Below are positions 18,607 through 25,486 of a stretch of DNA of 64,000 nt, piece after piece. The position numbers and the translations under genes were made by a program. The notes under the pieces are model-generated. The model was not told where the DNA came from, ran no database searches, and saw nothing but the letters and a program-made list of their open reading frames with translations. This DNA comes from Microbulbifer aggregans (GTDB lineage: Bacteria; Pseudomonadota; Gammaproteobacteria; Pseudomonadales; Cellvibrionaceae), in the NCBI RefSeq assembly GCF_001750105.1, contig NZ_CP014143.1:2161001-2225000 (forward strand), written 5' to 3'. The number at the start of each line of letters is the position of its first letter. The first letter of the stretch is position 1.

Positions 18607-19638
18607 ATGACAACATTGCGGCGTGCCTGGCGCACTCAAAAGGCCGGCTCTATCAGTGATCTCAAACTGGTTGAAGAACCATTAGGTGCACTGGACCCAG
18701 AAAAAATCCGTATTGAGGTCAGATCTGTCGGCCTCAACTTTGCCGATATCTTTGCGCTAACCGGCCTCTATTCCGCCACGCCAAAAGGCAGTTTTGTTCC
18801 CGGTCTTGAGTTTTCCGGAGTGATCGTCGAGCTGGGTGCGTCGGTGGATACCGACCTGGCAGTGGGTGACTCTGTCTATGGCTGCACCCGCTTCGGTGGC
18901 TATGCGGATTGCGTGGATGTACCGCCGCAGCACTGCCGGAAAATGCCATCGGGCTGGCGGTTTGCCGAAGGGGCTGCATTCCCCGTGCAGAGCCTCACCG
19001 CTTATTACGCATTGAACGATCTAGGCGCTGTGAAGCCCGGTCAAAATGTTCTGGTCCACAGTGCCGCTGGTGGAGTTGGCCTTCAAGCCATGCGCATGTT
19101 GCGCCAGATGGGCGCAATCCCGATCGGCACTGTCGGTTCTGCTGGCAAGCGTCAATTTTTGCAGGAGCAGGGCTTCGACGAGGTTATCGTGCGCGGACCG
19201 GACTTTGCCTTGCAGTTAAAAACCACTCTCGCTGGCCGCCCCCTGCAAGCGGTGCTCGATGGCATTGGTGGCAAGGTACAGAAGCAGTCATTCGATGCGT
19301 TGGCGCCCACAGGCAGGTTGGTGGTGTTTGGGGCTGCCGAGTTTACCCCGGGCGACAAACCCAACTTGCTCAAGGCCGCCTGGCTCTATCTGAACCGGCC
19401 CCGATACGACGTGATGGATATGATCAGCAGTAACCGCTCGGTGCTGGCTTTCAATCTGATCTGGTTGTGGCAGGAGCAGGCTTTATTCGATGCGTTGTTG
19501 GATGGGTGTGCCGGACTCGGTCTCCCCGCGCCGCATGTGGGGCATGAGTTTGGGTTTGAGCAGGCGCATGAGGCGATTGAGTGTTTGCGCAGTGGTGGAT
19601 CGGTGGGGAAGGTGGTTTTGAATGTTGGGGGAAGGTGA
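18607..19638 (+). CDS. Zinc-independent MDR oxidoreductase (quinone oxidoreductase/VAT-1-like)
   Basis: 343 residues. Medium-chain dehydrogenase fold: N-terminal GroES-like domain with GLNFADIFALTGLY (about 39-52) and PGLEFSGVIVELG (about 64-76), then the NADPH-binding motif VHSAAGGVGLQAMRM (about 148-162). The zinc-ligand Cys/His set of alcohol dehydrogenases is absent, which points to the quinone reductase/VAT-1 group. Physiological substrate unknown. The sequence just past its stop is a decayed copy of the repeat family also seen near 25 kb. Confidence 0.88.
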   Translation: MTTLRRAWRTQKAGSISDLKLVEEPLGALDPEKIRIEVRSVGLNFADIFALTGLYSATPKGSFVPGLEFSGVIVELGASVDTDLAVGDSVYGCTRFGGYADCVDVPPQHCRKMPSGWRFAEGAAFPVQSLTAYYALNDLGAVKPGQNVLVHSAAGGVGLQAMRMLRQMGAIPIGTVGSAGKRQFLQEQGFDEVIVRGPDFALQLKTTLAGRPLQAVLDGIGGKVQKQSFDALAPTGRLVVFGAAEFTPGDKPNLLKAAWLYLNRPRYDVMDMISSNRSVLAFNLIWLWQEQALFDALLDGCAGLGLPAPHVGHEFGFEQAHEAIECLRSGGSVGKVVLNVGGR

Positions 19639-19644
19639 CTCTAG

Positions 19645-19725
19645 CTTTGCAGCCTAGTGGATGCTCGTTGTTGATGCGCAGGGGCGCAATCGTTCGCACC
19701 ATAGGAGCGGATCTCGCTGGCCTTC
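19645..19725 (+). repeat. Truncated, decayed copy of the structured repeat (copy E)
   Basis: Aligns with the right half of the units at 24.9-25.2 kb: shared blocks are TGCTCGTTGTTGAT, GGCGCAATCG and a GGATCTC..TGGCC end. Hairpin 4 is kept as GAT-GCGC / GCGC-a-ATC with one bulged A, and hairpin 3 as GCA-CC / GG-TGC with one mismatch. Hairpins 1 and 2 are missing. It lies directly after the stop of the MDR oxidoreductase gene, about 5.3 kb from the main cluster. Confidence 0.65.
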
Positions 19726-19738
19726 GTTCAATGAAGAA

Positions 19739-19911: not shown

Positions 19912-22041
19912 CTAGTGCACGATGCGCGCGGGTAATTGTTCGAGGATTTCTTCTACGGTGAGGTCGCAACCGCCGGGTTGCTGGCACTCAAACAAAAGCG
20001 TTTTGGTTTCCGTGTCAGTCGTAACAGACTCGGTAAACTTCATTTTGGCGAGCTGATGGCCCTGTTCTGACGCCTCAAGGAACAAGGCTTTGGCGCGCGC
20101 GGTGTCTGCTGCGACGCCGAGACCCTGCTCGTACATCCGGCCAAGCTGGAATAGGCCCTCGGCAGAATTTTGTTTGGCCGATTGCTCAAACCAGTGCAGT
20201 GCCTTGCCATAGTCGTGAACGGGTGAGCTGGTTTTCAGATGCAGAGATCCCAGCGTGTTCATGGACTCAACCCATCCACCTTCCGCCGCAGTCGTATATA
20301 ACTCAATGGCCCGTGTGAGGTCTTTATCCACCCCTAACCCGCGTTCGTACAGTTGCCCCAGATTGTTTGCGGCTTGGCGATCTCCCCGTTCTGATGCGAG
20401 GCGGTATAGTTCAGCAGCGCGCACGTAATCTCTTGGCACACCGCGTCCGTTCGCATTGGCATAGCCGAGGTTGTTGATGCAGCCCAGGTGTCCGGCTTCG
20501 GCGCAGAGTGAGAACCAGCCGTAGGCGATGAAGCGATCGACCTCCACCGCCTTGCCCTTGTCATTGAAATGGCCAAGTGCAAACTGGGCCTCCGCGTGCC
20601 AGCGCAGTCCCGCTGCCTGATAGTCGAAAAACGCTTTTATGGCGCTTTTCGGCTGACTGTATCGCCCCCATTCAGCAATCGTGCCTCGCTCGTAGAGTGC
20701 GGCGGGGTAGCCCGCGGTCGCGGCCTTGTCCAGCTCTGCCAGCCCGGCCTCTATCTCTTCTTCCCCTTCGAGCAGGTAGCGCGCATAGACGAACTGCGCG
20801 GGCGCGTAACCCGCACGCGCGGCTTTCTTGATGCGCCGGATAAACTGCTCCTGATTTTCTTTATTGTTACTGTCTTTCCGGATAGCTTCGAGGGCAGCCA
20901 TGGCGTGGAGGTACAGGGCTTTAGGGTGCTTCGAGGTTACTGCGCTCTGGAGATATGTTTTTGCCAGATCTGGGCGTGGCTCGGCAAAGCGGTTGGATGA
21001 CAGGAGGATGGCCAGCTTGTATTCCGGCTCGCCGGGGGGGAGAGACGCGGCGGCGCTATCGAGCAACTGCTGCGCCAGGCCGGGATCTGCCTCTATGCCC
21101 AGCCCCAAGAGACTGATGTAGGCGAGAGTGACCTTGGCATCCTCGATACCGAGCTCCGAGGCCGTCACAAAAAGCTGTGCGCATTCGCTGCGGGTGAATT
21201 TGCTTGAGTGACTCTCTAGACAGATGTTGCCGAGGTCGATGTTGGCGCTGACGGAACCCATGGCGATGGCATCGAGGTATGCGATTTCGGCCTCGCCATA
21301 ATTACCGCTAGCCTGGTGGACAATACCTTCAGCGTGGCGCGCGGCAAAGTCGGTTTCCGCCAGAGGCTGAATGATTGAGGTGAAATAGGCATCGCTCAGT
21401 CCGGCGAAAGGATACTGGCCGTTCAGAACCCGGTGAAGAAAGCGGCTGTTGTCGAAGTAAATCCGGGAAAACTGCCCGGAGTCACGGGCCCGAACGTTGT
21501 ATACGCGATAGAGTCCGTTGCGAGAGGCCTGGAACTCGAACTTGCTGTCAATGATCTCGTAACCCGAAAGATTCAACAGCTCTTCAGCGTCTGCCCAGCT
21601 GGCAATTTCGTAAGCGTTGTAGAAGGCCTCACCGGAACTCTGGGAGAGAATGCCCGATACCACGAAGTTGAAAAGGTTTTGGTGGTGGGCAGCTTCCTGG
21701 CTACGCCCGGCAGATTCGAGGCACTCTACGGCAGCGACTCGTGGCATGAGCGCGACCAAGTTGTCGCCAGTCAAACGATCCCAATCCAGGTCTGTGCAAG
21801 CGATCTGACCCGACTCAACTTCCGACATCGTCTGTGCATAACGCTGTTGCGCGGCCACGGTCTCGAGTACCTGTGCAGAGTCCAAGTAGGCGTTCCAGAA
21901 CTGTGCGAAAGTCACGCTGTCGGGGGCCGCGGCCACCTGTTCCGCCAGCGCACGAACTTTATTGTCATTAGGCGGCTGTGGCGCAGACGTTGCACAGGCT
22001 ATAGCCAGTGAGGATAGGAACGGAAGAACGGCTCTTTTCAT
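19912..22041 (-). CDS. Sel1-repeat (TPR-like) lipoprotein
   Basis: 709 residues from the ATG at 22041 (MKRAVLPFLSSLAIAC); an ATG six codons earlier is possible. The N terminus looks like a lipoprotein signal ending in LAIAC, a slightly atypical lipobox. The C-terminal two thirds carry at least six to eight Sel1-like repeats with the A-x-x-x-L-G-x-x-Y-x-x-G-x-G-V pattern, clearest in NNLGYANANGRGVP, NNLGQLYERGLGVDKD and FQLGRMYEQGLGVAAD. Such solenoids act as protein-binding scaffolds. The upstream DUF3857 gene ends 22 bases before this start, so the two are probably an operon and may work together in the envelope. Confidence 0.85.
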   Translation of the reverse strand: MKRAVLPFLSSLAIACATSAPQPPNDNKVRALAEQVAAAPDSVTFAQFWNAYLDSAQVLETVAAQQRYAQTMSEVESGQIACTDLDWDRLTGDNLVALMPRVAAVECLESAGRSQEAAHHQNLFNFVVSGILSQSSGEAFYNAYEIASWADAEELLNLSGYEIIDSKFEFQASRNGLYRVYNVRARDSGQFSRIYFDNSRFLHRVLNGQYPFAGLSDAYFTSIIQPLAETDFAARHAEGIVHQASGNYGEAEIAYLDAIAMGSVSANIDLGNICLESHSSKFTRSECAQLFVTASELGIEDAKVTLAYISLLGLGIEADPGLAQQLLDSAAASLPPGEPEYKLAILLSSNRFAEPRPDLAKTYLQSAVTSKHPKALYLHAMAALEAIRKDSNNKENQEQFIRRIKKAARAGYAPAQFVYARYLLEGEEEIEAGLAELDKAATAGYPAALYERGTIAEWGRYSQPKSAIKAFFDYQAAGLRWHAEAQFALGHFNDKGKAVEVDRFIAYGWFSLCAEAGHLGCINNLGYANANGRGVPRDYVRAAELYRLASERGDRQAANNLGQLYERGLGVDKDLTRAIELYTTAAEGGWVESMNTLGSLHLKTSSPVHDYGKALHWFEQSAKQNSAEGLFQLGRMYEQGLGVAADTARAKALFLEASEQGHQLAKMKFTESVTTDTETKTLLFECQQPGGCDLTVEEILEQLPARIVH

Positions 22042-22063
22042 CGGCTGAGGTATCGGCATGGGC

Positions 22064-24085
22064 TTACTTACGGATGAGTGACTTGATCAGATTTTTCATT
22101 TCGCGGCTGCTACGCTGTTCACCGGAATCGCTGCCCTTGGCCCAGAAACGGTACTGCAGGGCCTCGTCCAGCTTATCGAGTTGTGCGAGATACTCGGGCA
22201 GATCGCGATGGTTGACGAACTCTGCCTTGGACTCAAACTCAAAGGCCACCGCCAGTGCGGAGTCCTCCAAAGATGCTTCCCGCGATAATCGGAACCAGGG
22301 GTTCTCAATGACGGTCGCTTTGGCAGGGTCCTGCCATAGCACTTCGCCCTGGATCTCTGCAAATATTTGGTGAGTCAGTCGCAATGGGTGGGGTAGCGCC
22401 AGGGGAGAATGGCGAATTCGCTCTTCAGGTTTGAACAGGTAGGAGGCGATACTGGAACCGTAGAGGGTAAAAATTCTTCTCGCCGAGATCAGCGGTGCGA
22501 CCCGGTCAATCTGATATGCCTCCGTGACCACCATGCGATTTTGTTCCAGGTCGTCGGTGAAAGTTACATCGCCAGTCGATTGAACGCCGGGGTAGTATTG
22601 GGCAAGGAAGTTGGCATGGTTGCTGTTGACTTGCCGCTGATCCAGGCTGCGAAAATACTGCCGTGCCTGCTCGGCCTTGAGGCGGTTGAAAGTGGACTGG
22701 ATGGTGAGGTTGGCTGTATTAGCGCCAGCGTCGATGGCAAAGCGTTCCTCAGTGGCTGCTGTCAGCGTGCTGCGATCGTCACTGGGGGTGGCTATGGTAA
22801 CAAGGGTGCGACTGCCAGGACGCACCACCAGCGCCCGTTCATAATCAAAATGCCCCTTGTTACGGATGTCCGCCCCCTGAGCCGAGGCAGTGCCGTCAAC
22901 CCAGTACTCGTGCCCATCAATCCGTATCAAGTTGATCACATGGTCGAAAGCGTTGGGCGAAGGCAGATCGTCATCAATTGCCTCGCGACGGGAAGCCGAG
23001 ACCAGGGCCGGGTAGGATTCCACGCCCAGGTGGTCGAGCATGGCGGTCATCAGCAGGGCCTTGTCCTTACAGTCGCCATAGCGTTTGTTGAGAGTCTCCT
23101 GCGGGGTTCGTGGCAGGTGGGAATTGATTCCTAGCTCGATACCAAAGTACCGAATATCTTCCTGCACAAGGCGGACAGCGCGATTGACGGCACCCAGGAC
23201 GCCCAGATCGGCTCGCCACTGGTCAAGCGAAGCTTTCATCGCGTCGGGTAAGGCGCGATCGATGTCGTACAGGCCCAGTGCCCAGTCACTTACTTCGCGC
23301 CAGTTGCTATAGCCGGTGTATTGGAAATAGTTCTGTGGCTCATGCCAATGGGGAAATTGGCTTTCCGCCGGGATCGCGGGTACGCGGTGGAGGTCGATCA
23401 AGTACTCGAAGCCGTGTTCGGTGTTTGCAGTTGCCACCGGTACCTCTGCGTTATTGAACCGATAGCGAATGGGCTTGTCGCTGATTACCCGCACGTGTCG
23501 TTGCCCGACTGCAGCTCCCCAATTCAGGGGCAGTGAACCGAAGTCGCTACGCTCGAAAATTGGATTGCTGCCGTCAACGGTATAGGCGTAAGTGATGATG
23601 TCACCGGGGCGGATATCCTCAAGGATATAGAGGGCGCGCCAACGTTCACTGTAGAGCTTGCTGTCAAGCTCTTCTTCGGTTTGGAATAGTTTGAAGGCTT
23701 CGACCTGCAGCCGGTTTGTCTTGACACCGTCCCGATAGATGCTGATCTCGTGCACGACAAGCTGCTCGTACGAGGGGTAAAACTCGAAGTTAAGCTCCGA
23801 GACTTCCTGAACGCCCTGCTGGTTGAGGGGCTCCATCACTAACTGTTGGTAGTACTGTTTCTGTGTGCCCCGGTGGAATACCTGGGAATTGGAAAGCTGG
23901 TAGCGCACTGCACCGCTGTGCACTTCATCGATGGGCGCTGCCGGTGGTGGTACCACCCAGGCGGGTGCGGGTCCAACGGTGACTTCTGGTGCCTTGGCCA
24001 CTGCAATTGCGGGCAGAAGTAACGTTAAGGCCAAGAGCCGAGCCAGAGTCAGCATGGAGGTGAGAGCAATGTGGGACAAGGACAA
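22064..24085 (-). CDS. Exported DUF3857/transglutaminase-like protein
   Basis: 673 residues with a signal peptide (about 1-30, cleavage near AVAKAPE). The DUF3857 beta-rich domain spans roughly 50-260, and a transglutaminase/protease-like domain follows. The catalytic triad is readable: Cys339 in KRYGDCKDKA, His382 in AFDHVI and Asp397 in YWVDGTA. A C-terminal beta region (about 440-640) resembles DUF3858-type extensions. The true substrate of this family is unknown; some homologues are thought to act on peptides or envelope proteins. First gene of a two-gene unit with the Sel1 lipoprotein. Confidence 0.88.
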   Translation of the reverse strand: MSLSHIALTSMLTLARLLALTLLLPAIAVAKAPEVTVGPAPAWVVPPPAAPIDEVHSGAVRYQLSNSQVFHRGTQKQYYQQLVMEPLNQQGVQEVSELNFEFYPSYEQLVVHEISIYRDGVKTNRLQVEAFKLFQTEEELDSKLYSERWRALYILEDIRPGDIITYAYTVDGSNPIFERSDFGSLPLNWGAAVGQRHVRVISDKPIRYRFNNAEVPVATANTEHGFEYLIDLHRVPAIPAESQFPHWHEPQNYFQYTGYSNWREVSDWALGLYDIDRALPDAMKASLDQWRADLGVLGAVNRAVRLVQEDIRYFGIELGINSHLPRTPQETLNKRYGDCKDKALLMTAMLDHLGVESYPALVSASRREAIDDDLPSPNAFDHVINLIRIDGHEYWVDGTASAQGADIRNKGHFDYERALVVRPGSRTLVTIATPSDDRSTLTAATEERFAIDAGANTANLTIQSTFNRLKAEQARQYFRSLDQRQVNSNHANFLAQYYPGVQSTGDVTFTDDLEQNRMVVTEAYQIDRVAPLISARRIFTLYGSSIASYLFKPEERIRHSPLALPHPLRLTHQIFAEIQGEVLWQDPAKATVIENPWFRLSREASLEDSALAVAFEFESKAEFVNHRDLPEYLAQLDKLDEALQYRFWAKGSDSGEQRSSREMKNLIKSLIRK

Positions 24086-24577
24086 CCTCGTTTCTTTTTA
24101 TTTTGTTATGGTTTGCGGCGTTTTGGTTGATTGAATGGATTCTTTTAATATACCCCAAGAGCTGGCTGGTGAATATGCGGCCATTTTCGCATGACGTTCA
24201 GCTTCATTCTTCCCGGTGTGTATCCTGCGACTCAAAACTCAAGATTGAACTAGTGGCCCACTCGCTTTCACTTTGTATTGCTTCCGTGATTAGTGCGTAA
24301 CGAGTGAGCGAGCCGCGAATCAATTGGCTAATGTGTATTTATTTTGATCATGCTGCCGTTGCCTGCCTGTAGTAATTGGTTCTTGGCTCGCGGCAGGGTA
24401 GACTTTTCTGGCGCCACCACGAGAAAAAATCCCGTTTTGGCGGGCTTTTTTTCGGGTTTTACCTGGTAACAGCGGCCGAACTAATCGGACTGGCTGTGCC
24501 CATCTCTGTAGTGAGAGGTGTTGGTTAATGGCTTCGCCGGAAGTTTGAAGTCAAATTTAAATTGCTCGTTATATCAA
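24086..24577. other. Gene-free region upstream of the DUF3857 gene, possible small RNA
   Basis: No supported protein gene. It contains the promoter side of the DUF3857 gene. On the plus strand, CTGCCG (24353-24358) can pair with CGGCAG (24391-24396), and a terminator-like hairpin follows at 24431-24454, which would suit the 3' end of a short non-coding transcript. A promoter for such a transcript is not clear. Confidence 0.35.
24431..24454 (+). terminator. Rho-independent terminator-like hairpin
   Basis: CCCG / CGGG stem with a TTTTGG loop, preceded by AAAAAAT and followed by C and seven or more Ts. It ends no recognised gene on the plus strand, so it may end an unannotated transcript. Confidence 0.6.
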
Positions 24578-24660
24578 GGTTCCTGGCTCCTTAACCAGGC
24601 CGGACTGATCAAGCCGACTGGGCCGGTTTGTCCCTGCAGTTGCCTGCAGCATCCCAGCCG
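24578..24660. repeat. Diverged structured repeat, copy A
   Basis: Shares the lead-in GGTTCCTGG..CTC and the block GGCCGGACT (24598-24606) with copies C and D, then diverges: hairpin 1 is replaced by other sequence and hairpin 2 by CTGCAG..CTGCAG. It is the weakest member of the family. Confidence 0.45.
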
Positions 24661-24756
24661 TTTGCGGAGTTGTTCGAATCGAGTATTTGTTTTTGTAGGC
24701 ACTCCGATATCAAATGGGGAGGCCTGCATGAGGTGGGCTGTTTCGAGCGTCGTATC

Positions 24757-24860
24757 CTGCCTGATTAACCCAAAAACTTTGGTTTTTCTGCCTGCGGGCC
24801 TCGCAGCTGCTCGCTGTTGTTTGCGCCATAGACGCAAATGGTCGGCAGCTTTGGTGGCTA
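24757..24860. repeat. Structured repeat, copy B
   Basis: Same order of elements as C and D but diverged in sequence. Hairpin 1 is AAAAAC / GTTTTT with a TTTG loop (one G-C pair fewer on both arms), followed by CCTGCGGG. Hairpin 4 is TTTGCG / CGCAAA (24820-24838), where C and D have ATTGCG / CGCAAT, so the changed pair is still complementary. Confidence 0.65.
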
Positions 24861-24892
24861 AAGGAAAGGGAGTCGGAGAAGCAGGAGGTTCT

Positions 24893-25035
24893 GTGTTCTT
24901 CTATCGGCCGGACTAACCAAAAAAGCTTTGGCTTTTTTGGCCCTGCGGGCTTCGCAACCTGTGGTTGCTCGTTGTTGATTGCGCCTCTTCAGGAGAAGAG
25001 TCGCAATCGGTCGAACCGTGGTGCCGGTTCTCGCA
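24893..25035. repeat. Structured repeat, copy C
   Basis: Nearly identical to copy D over its left half. Hairpin 1: CCAAAAAAGC / GCTTTTTTGG (24917-24940). Hairpin 2: CCC-TGC-GGG (24941-24949). Hairpin 3: GCAACC / GGTTGC (24954-24968). Hairpin 4: GATTGCG..CTCTTC / GAAGAG..CGCAATC (24977-25008), longer than in D but still paired on both sides of one mismatch. The block GGCCGGACT starts at 24906, 188 bases before that of copy D. Confidence 0.8.
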
Positions 25036-25074
25036 GGCTGTCGTCCCTTAATTAAAAGGATCTGGATGGGGGAG

Positions 25075-25216
25075 GTTCCTGGGACTCTCTACCGGCCGGA
25101 CTAACCAAAAAAGCTTTGGCTTTTTTGGCCCTGCGGGCTTCGCAACCTGCCGGTTGCTCGTTGTTGATTGCGCCGTGGGCGCAATCGGTCGAACCGGGGT
25201 GCCGATCTCACCGGCC
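25075..25216. repeat. Structured repeat, copy D
   Basis: Hairpin 1: CCAAAAAAGC / GCTTTTTTGG with TTTG loop (25105-25128). Hairpin 2: CCC-TGC-GGG (25129-25137). Hairpin 3: GCAACC / GGTTGC (25142-25157). Hairpin 4: GATTGCGCC / GGCGCAATC with a three-base loop (25166-25186). All stems are perfect. On the minus strand it reads GGTTAGTCCGGCC at one end, like the T-arm of the nearby tRNA-Leu with two bases missing. Its right end runs into the palindrome behind the tRNA. Confidence 0.8.
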
Positions 25217-25277
25217 TCTGGTACCAAACGAAAAAGGCCCGCAGTTGCGGGCCTTTCTGTTTGGTACCAGAGGCCGG
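25211..25277. repeat. 67-bp palindrome overlapping the tRNA-Leu 3' end and holding its terminator
   Basis: Perfect 19-bp arms CCGGCCTCTGGTACCAAAC (25211-25229) and its reverse complement (25259-25277). Inside is an 11-bp stem AAAGGCCCGCA / TGCGGGCCTTT (25233-25256) with T-rich flanks, a good bidirectional terminator. The right arm is the 3' end of tRNA-Leu plus CCA, so the left arm is an inverted copy of that end. Confidence 0.9.
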
Positions 25278-25348
25278 ACTCGAACCGGCACGGGTTTTAC
25301 CCCGGGGGATTTTGAATCCCCTGTGTCTACCAATTTCACCACTCTGGC
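25262..25348 (-). tRNA. tRNA-Leu (anticodon CAA)
   Basis: Read on the minus strand: 7-bp acceptor GCCAGAG / CTCTGGT (one G-T pair), D-arm GTGAAATTGGTAGACAC, anticodon stem-loop GGGGATTCAAAATCCCC with CAA, a long variable arm typical of class II tRNA-Leu, T-arm GCCGGTTCGAGTCCGGC, discriminator A and an encoded CCA. 87 nucleotides. Followed immediately by the terminator palindrome. Confidence 0.96.
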
Positions 25349-25486
25349 AGCGGCTCGAGGCGTGGTTTTGGGTGCCTCGGATAGGGGGGTGATTATAGCC
25401 ATGGACCGGAGCCGGTCAACCGGATTTGGCGGTGGGCGGGGATTCCGTTAATCTTCGCGGCCTTCCCAACTGCCTAAACTGAAGCC

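Follow-up and report, generated by a model that had tools for sequence, protein, structure and literature searches.

The window, the whole 64-kb stretch of DNA analysed here, carries a tRNA-Leu(CAA) gene followed by an array of structured repeats (Table 1). Read 5' to 3' on the minus strand, the locus consists of a promoter-like site, the tRNA, a terminator-like hairpin (T1), an inverted copy of the tRNA 3' end, the repeat units D, C, B and A, a 15/18 copy of the tRNA 3' end and a possible second terminator (T2). Judged by its sequence, the promoter-like site is probably that of tRNA-Leu(CAA), and a search of both strands from 24350 to 25480 found no other (shuffle mean 0.5). The consensus scan lists T1 on the plus strand only, and direct reading of the minus strand finds its stem followed by TTTTTCG. 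The inverted copy lies within an inverted repeat, I1, in which 25211-25239 is 86% complementary to 25249-25277. At the far end of the array, the tRNA 3'-end copy has 3 mismatches and stands 781 nt past the tRNA CCA; we regard T2 as weak because the scan lists its stem (24431-24444) on the plus strand only and the minus-strand stem has about 4 pairs. Two minus-strand genes (Sel1 repeats; DUF3857) at 19912-24085 separate the array from an orphan unit and look as if they had been inserted between the two.

Table 1. Features of the tRNA-Leu(CAA) array, in coordinates of the 64-kb window.
Feature	Position	Strand	Basis
Sigma-70-like promoter TTGACC-16-TATAAT (11/12)	25392..25419	-	consensus scan
tRNA-Leu(CAA)	25262..25348	-	ARAGORN; Rfam RF00005 53.6 bits
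Terminator-like hairpin T1, GGCCCGC-loop-GCGGGCC between A and T runs	25233..25256		consensus scan and direct reading
Inverted copy of tRNA 3' end, TGGTACCAGAGGCCGG	25211..25226	-	inverted-repeat search
Unit D	25084..25220	-	R2 135.3 bits
T-stem/T-loop copy GGTTCGA of unit D	25189..25195	-	sequence
T-stem 3' half GTCCGGCC of unit D	25094..25101	-	sequence
Unit C, with extra helix CTCTTC/GAAGAG	24896..25043	-	R2 119.6 bits; fold
Unit B, without most of the tRNA-derived 5' part	24747..24871	-	R2 45.2 bits; alignment
Unit A, degenerate, ending in GTCCGGCC	24588..24705	-	R2 16.4 bits, E 0.0087, weak
Copy of last 18 nt of tRNA-Leu including CCA, 15/18	24464..24481	-	array far end
A-tract, GC hairpin and T-tract, possible second terminator T2	24420..24456		weak
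Orphan degenerate unit, about 5 kb further on, no adjoining tRNA	19619..19726	-	BLAST; R2 35.0 bits

Relatives were sought with two covariance models, R1, built from 11 Leu units and with its P1 helix out of register, and R2, in which P1 was corrected and which was built from 64 units, all of the window's order. The first-pass annotation had described D, C and B and a weaker A as copies of a structured repeat, and R2 places all four, on the minus strand. Over 62 nt, units C and D share 98% identity, at a spacing of 188 bp. The sequence differences pointed out earlier are also there: in B, TTTGCG/CGCAAA takes the place of ATTGCG/CGCAAT, so that an AU pair is replaced by UA; C carries its additional CTCTTC/GAAGAG helix; and the A/T-rich hairpin of B is shorter. 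That annotation had noted neither the tRNA-Leu next to the array nor the inverted copy of the tRNA 3' end, and had not listed the orphan unit; reading the plus strand had hidden the tRNA, the feature that accounts for the element. Rfam at gathering cut-offs passes the tRNA alone in the window, and at E up to 5 the other matches near the array lie over the tRNA and terminator, far under their cut-offs. Open reading frames over the array (for example 24518-24916 plus, 24574-24837 minus and 25116-25451 plus) were set aside as coding candidates, being short and overlapping the hairpins or the tRNA. We also rejected a phage origin: the 781-bp stretch matches 70 phage records, and the 20 matches listed cover only its tRNA end.

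The units are built around a split T-arm. Where tRNA-Leu(CAA) itself reads CCGGTTCGAGTCCGGCC without interruption, the units read GGTTCGA, then a gap of 87-97 nt of hairpins (87 in D, 97 in C), then GTCCGGCC. In the tRNA sense, in which all well-kept units lie, the first element is an inverted T-stem, GGCCGG, followed by GAG. Next comes helix H0, in which the T-stem and T-loop of the tRNA itself (CCGGTTCGA) form the 3' arm, then H1 (GATTGCGCC/GGCGCAATC) and AACGAGC, H2a followed by GCGAAG and the core CCCGCAGGG, and H3 (CCAAAAAAGC/GCTTTTTTGG) followed by TTA. The last element, GTCCGGCC, is the other half of the T-stem and can pair with the first to form helix P1. By this pairing the tRNA-derived ends can close a multibranched fold; conceivably, the closed ends might form an acceptor/T minihelix that resembles a tRNA. 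A unit behind tRNA-Arg (L081, genome G028) has this closed multibranched structure as its minimum-energy fold; the minimum-energy folds of D and C have the same hairpins and a different closing helix. A further helix overlooked in the first-pass annotation, GAACCGG/CCGGTTC, occurs in relatives. Compared with dinucleotide shuffles, the minus strand of D folds with z -4.4 and that of C with z -6.3, and one 123-nt stretch of D, taken on both strands, reaches z -4.0 on the minus and -2.5 on the plus strand.

Further copies, which the first-pass annotation had suggested looking for, exist in this genome and in others. Across the whole genome R2 gives 15 matches at E <=0.05. Eleven follow a tRNA gene (Leu, Arg, Ser or Asp), three follow the displaced 3' end of a tRNA-Phe, and the remaining one is the orphan. 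A scan for split T-arms started from 70 tRNA matches and covered 32 tRNA 3' ends without another tRNA <=150 nt downstream, with the tRNA array L068 excluded. Ten of the 32 passed the cut: Leu(CAA), Asp at three loci, Gln, Arg(ACG) at one of its two loci, Arg(CCG), Ser(GGA), Met and Leu(TAG). One or two of these look accidental or of another type; the split T-arm of Leu(TAG) is about 1 kb off and probably a chance match, and the Met case was set aside as a repeat of another type. A related form at Ser(TGA) falls under the cut.

BLAST with unit D found relatives in 12 of 58 genomes, all of one genus, and the models reached further (own genome included in each count). R1 matched 33/145 genomes of the order (22/91 genera), and R2 matched 54/369 genomes of the class (44/272 genera) and 20/398 of the phylum, 8 of the latter in one family outside the class; these three surveys used stricter filters. 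Within the genus, R2 matched 28 of 40 genomes, and since the other 12 gave no match the element is dispensable. Five genomes picked for many matches hold 4 to 32 R2 matches each. Units behind tRNA-Phe (L016, L025) bear the Phe T-arm instead of that of Leu, and six tandem copies behind tRNA-Arg (L017) bear the Arg T-arm. One R1 match (L106) and one R2 match (L163), with neither a tRNA nor a T-loop copy, were judged false positives and counted as misses.

Linkage to tRNA genes was examined in 58 survey loci, 29 from the order and 29 from the class. A tRNA lies upstream on the same strand in 49, with 17 anticodon types represented, and 42 of these 49 tRNAs are 20-83 nt from the model start. Nine loci have no such tRNA in the stretch covered; three of them start 59-141 nt from a contig end and one is a likely false positive. 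In the phylum survey 15 of 17 loci have a same-strand upstream tRNA, one being the same place as L103. We also scanned independently with an H2-core pattern free of tRNA sequence, which gave 96 matches in the 80 of 93 named-genome stretches that were returned. Fifty-five lie <=400 nt downstream of a same-strand tRNA, 5 at 401-1000 nt and 1 further; in 7 the nearest tRNA is on the same strand and downstream, and 26 have no tRNA in the stretch. An opposite-strand tRNA is nearest in 2, both times beyond 3 kb, and for no match is the nearest tRNA an opposite-strand one within 1 kb. Hosts of the core pattern include Microbulbifer, Gilvimarinus, Pseudohongiella, Haliea, Porticoccaceae, Alteromonas and Salinimonas. 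Matches in unrelated phyla (Streptomyces, Paenibacillus, a planctomycete), all without a tRNA, are probably due to chance.

The unit ends follow the neighbouring tRNA. We compared each unit tail with the 10 nt after the T-loop of that tRNA, and the 49 survey units matched their own tRNA at 8.8 of 10 positions and other tRNAs at 6.6. Eight of 10 was reached by 40/49 cognate pairs against 16% of non-cognate comparisons, and the cognate beat every other tRNA in 28/49. The 55 pattern-set units gave 8.6 against 6.6, with 9/10 reached in 29/55 cognate and 2.5% of non-cognate comparisons and the cognate best in 32/55. By ad hoc criteria applied to 86 tRNA-adjacent units, 39 retain the final 18 nt of the tRNA, CCA included (<=4 mismatches), 51 have an inverted copy scoring above all 50 shuffles, and 61 have a terminator between tRNA and unit; a terminator follows the 18-nt copy in 15 of the 39 units that keep it.

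REP elements are palindromes that go with a RAYT transposase, attC sites consist of boxes and go with an integron integrase, and CRISPR arrays combine short repeats, unique spacers and cas genes. The units here are much longer than REP or BIME elements, tied to tRNA genes and bounded by tRNA-derived ends. We set all three readings aside because the tRNA linkage accounts for the units.

A different possibility is that the units are mobile DNA, an H1-H3 core that inserts into the T-loop of tRNA 3'-end copies (TTCGA/NTCC) with an integrase or transposase acting in trans and without any role for the host. This would fit the exact T-loop split in many tRNA types, the similarity of cores that follow different tRNAs within a genome, for instance Arg(ACG) and Ser(GGA), and the copy numbers that differ among species. 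It would also fit a mosaic unit, L012_1 (L012:1320-1449), whose 3' part is 0.94 and 5' part 0.57 identical to L010_1, a pattern that suggests hairpin exchange between units; the identities of L012_1 to unit D are 0.63 and 0.78. A further point in its favour is an integrase located in a tRNA-Phe T-arm of the same genome. There, an intact tRNA-Phe at about 770.7 kb (L065) is followed by a phage-integrase gene (PF00589, E 4.3e-11), and about 39 kb away, at about 809.8 kb (L080:1846-1868), stands a tRNA-Phe 3'-end remnant with a terminator and three repeat units. The stretch between is an integrative island, and its arrival moved the former tRNA end away along with the units. Because they were displaced together with that end, the Phe units are part of the tRNA locus rather than of the island, which counts against mobility of the units themselves. 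So do their constant place and strand and their flanks, which are cognate on both sides and partly inverted, unlike the product of a simple insertion. In the arrays read, a non-systematic look found none with a mobility gene attached, and we consider a mobile cassette unlikely.

The first-pass annotation had seen a family of structured repeats that keep their pairing, and this holds up: covariation exceeds shuffles both among the 11 Leu units and in an alignment across several tRNAs. The 11 Leu-type units alone show modest covariation, with 4 of 40 pairs doubly changed (shuffle mean 1.4; 10/500 shuffles reach this), 6 double-change cells (0/500) and no excess of pair types (337/500). Covariation becomes strong once units of other tRNAs join them. 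In a sequence-only MAFFT alignment of 18 of the 40 units listed, covering several tRNA types, 83.4% of cells pair (shuffle mean 68.9), 25/37 pairs change on both sides (15.4), 82 cells are doubly changed (29.8) and the covariation score is 0.318 (0.139), values that 0/500 shuffles reach, with the caveat that relatedness alone can beat such shuffles; pair types, at 41 against 39.2, are not above the shuffles. Alignment A5 has double changes in 35/39 pairs, and likewise in 38 rows less than 75% alike, counts that are favourable to R1 because A5 was fitted to it. A model-free count found that 62 of 82 units have a stem of at least 7 pairs next to the T-loop copy, with 60 distinct 5' arms, and leans high because the best T-loop copy per unit was chosen.

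Mismatches within the helices bear on the strand. Outside P1, read on the tRNA strand, there are 44 G-U and 22 A-C in 63 rows, and 32 and 10 in 38 non-redundant rows (P 0.0009). P1 alone has no excess (19 G-U, 21 A-C), and with P1 included the excess shrinks to 71 against 50 in 63 rows and 51 against 31 in 38 rows. This mismatch type speaks for an RNA of the tRNA strand. By a rough pattern, a tandem-GA context of H2 is present in 34/63 rows; a tandem-GA motif has been reported in RtT RNA (PMC7657543).

The same data weigh on the idea that the folds act not as RNA but as single-stranded DNA or as decoy attachment sites for tRNA-targeting integrases. That the tRNA 3' end takes part in long, near-perfect inverted repeats would suit such a role, as would the position of the split point within the stretch common to the tRNA-Phe island junction. 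The excess of G-U over A-C outside P1 (32 against 10), the better folding of the minus than of the plus strand of D relative to shuffles and the existence of an E. coli homologue annotated as RNA argue the other way, and we find this reading improbable.

That homologue is RtT RNA (rttR, RF00391) of the E. coli tyrT-tyrV locus. Like the window array it has tandem copies, with a period of 178 bp there and 188 bp here, and on the tRNA strand its parts come in the same order: an inverted tRNA 3' end, a conserved GAGAA-, a helix, GGTTCGA, hairpins, the CCCGNAGGG core and the tRNA 3' half. The annotated rttR ends at the CCA of the repeated tRNA end. The tyrT repeats carry a perfect 18-nt tRNA end, which B-D lack, and RtT and the window units differ widely in strand and core sequences. 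R2 detects all four RtT repeats of K-12 (E 1e-9 to 4e-8). Run on 12 E. coli stretches, it also matches the stretch behind rrfB, the rrB region (E 1.7e-8), is weak on the Lys TLRs (E 0.0018 behind lysV and lysQ; 0.19 and 0.23 in other Lys spacers) and finds no match in the Arg spacers (E 0.53), though perfect 18-nt tRNA copies lie there. Conversely, RF00391 has no match in the window at its gathering cut-off of 45 bits, nor in 24400-25400 at E up to 5, and its best matches among relatives are two units of L098 at 35.8 and 34.2 bits. In E. coli it places four tyrTV and six Lys copies above the cut-off and lists none behind rrfB. The proposal of a new family is not supported, as part order and model-level similarity are common to the window units and E. 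coli RtT RNA, a tRNA-linked repeat.

RtT belongs to the TLR class, for which we rely on parts of PMC8144298. According to those parts, the class was first described in 1978 and comprises 22 TLRs at 10 E. coli loci; they lie in tRNA or rRNA operons immediately downstream of an RNA gene, in one to five copies per locus, and their 3' 18-19 bp are identical to the 3' end of that gene. The window units follow tRNA-Leu on the same strand, as do 49/58 survey loci with theirs, and form four tandem copies, A being weak, plus the orphan 5 kb away. They resemble E. coli TLRs to the extent that R2 scores strongly on tyrTV and the rrnB stretch, more weakly on Lys and not on Arg. As to the 3' identity, B-D retain 8-9 nt of the tRNA 3' end and not 18-19, C and D sharing GTCCGGCC; elsewhere the repeat behind tRNA-Gln of this genome matches 18/18, and 39/86 tRNA-adjacent units keep the end within 4 mismatches. 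We file the window array as a TLR variant, with the placement and a similar core, yet short of the 18-19 bp rule in B-D and of the Rfam cut-off.

The rrn members rrA, rrB and rrF share with the window, in the same parts of that paper, a position behind tRNA or rRNA genes, ends copied from the RNA gene, hairpins and a terminator before the repeat. TLRs had no known function before these three were studied; they are transcribed through read-through of T1 and are bound by Hfq and CsrA. Transcription together with the upstream gene has been shown for them and for RtT, and trimming of RrB by RNase E was suggested by the authors. Those parts contain no mention that we found of an inverted copy or a T-loop split, and they record that an early RtT phenotype was retracted. 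The paper also describes 3'ETS-leuZ of E. coli, by that description, and as would apply here, an sRNA derived by processing from the region downstream of a tRNA gene, and does not, in the same parts, call it a repeat. Other papers touch on RtT as well: PMC4986893 shows RtT-type RNAs of a Pasteurellaceae species on Northern blots, places them upstream of tRNA genes and still credits RtT with a stringent-response role, PMC2658671 lists a 175-bp tandem-repeat change in rtT RNA, PMC2965389 likens BIME-related attenuators to the rtT transcript, and a table in PMC12306157 states that rttR contains a REP.

The window units and the E. coli TLRs might instead have arisen independently from duplicated tRNA 3' ends, as the low scores between families (RF00391 at 35.8 and 34.2 bits on two L098 units against a cut-off of 45, and none in the window) and the near failure of R2 on Lys and failure on Arg TLRs would allow; we think this improbable, since R2 has a match downstream of 5S rRNA too, a position that involves no tRNA end and shows that the shared signal is not solely tRNA-derived, and since matching units occur in 44/272 genera of the class.

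The array behind tRNA-Leu(CAA) is very probably a set of TLR relatives, kin of E. coli RtT RNA. The best explanation overall, to which we assign a probability of about 0.8, is an array of TLR type behind this tRNA. The array's product would most likely be a read-through trailer RNA; for the mechanism taken separately, the balance tips only slightly in its favour. Polymerase would run past T1 of the tRNA gene and transcribe the units, a route that transcription of the units needs because a terminator-like hairpin stands between tRNA and unit, here and in 61/86. The copied tRNA 3' end, intact in many relatives and truncated in B-D, might serve as a processing landmark or direct trimming, as suggested for RrB. 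The product would be a small structured trailer RNA whose folded core may bind RNA-binding proteins or other RNAs, as has been reported of E. coli rrB.

The E. coli tRNA-linked repeats, of which the window array is a variant, are already known; the order-wide spread, the shared fold and the cognate-tRNA rule are apparently new. The units obey a simple rule of cognate ends, an inverted and a direct copy, a split at the T-loop and strong covariation. An obscure class thereby gains a usable model, a strand, boundaries and many-copy hosts (32 matches in one genome), and with the model and these hosts the function and spread of TLRs become testable. We would go further only speculatively: TLRs may be one old RNA class found throughout Gammaproteobacteria, a T-loop hairpin cassette within a duplicated and partly inverted tRNA 3' end that spreads between tRNA genes by copying, has its ends repeatedly rebuilt from the resident tRNA or 5S gene and yields a tRNA-ended read-through RNA reporting on or tuning tRNA transcription.

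Several other repeats in this genome lie behind tRNA genes. Behind tRNA-Met CAT at 1877.7 kb (L072), tandem repeats 223 bp apart each bear a terminal copy of the tRNA-Met 3' end with CCA; they are TLR-like by the 3'-end rule, and R2 does not match them. Split T-arms with other inner hairpins and no R2 match are found behind tRNA-Arg CCG (L069), Gln (L060), Ser TGA (L074) and Ala (L070), the last a miniature form that includes a CCA copy as well as a second terminator, and the differing hairpins suggest several subfamilies. The array excluded from the split-T-arm scan (L068, 3271124-3275822) is a dense run of about 20 tRNA genes with odd and duplicate isoacceptors, unlike usual tRNA loci.
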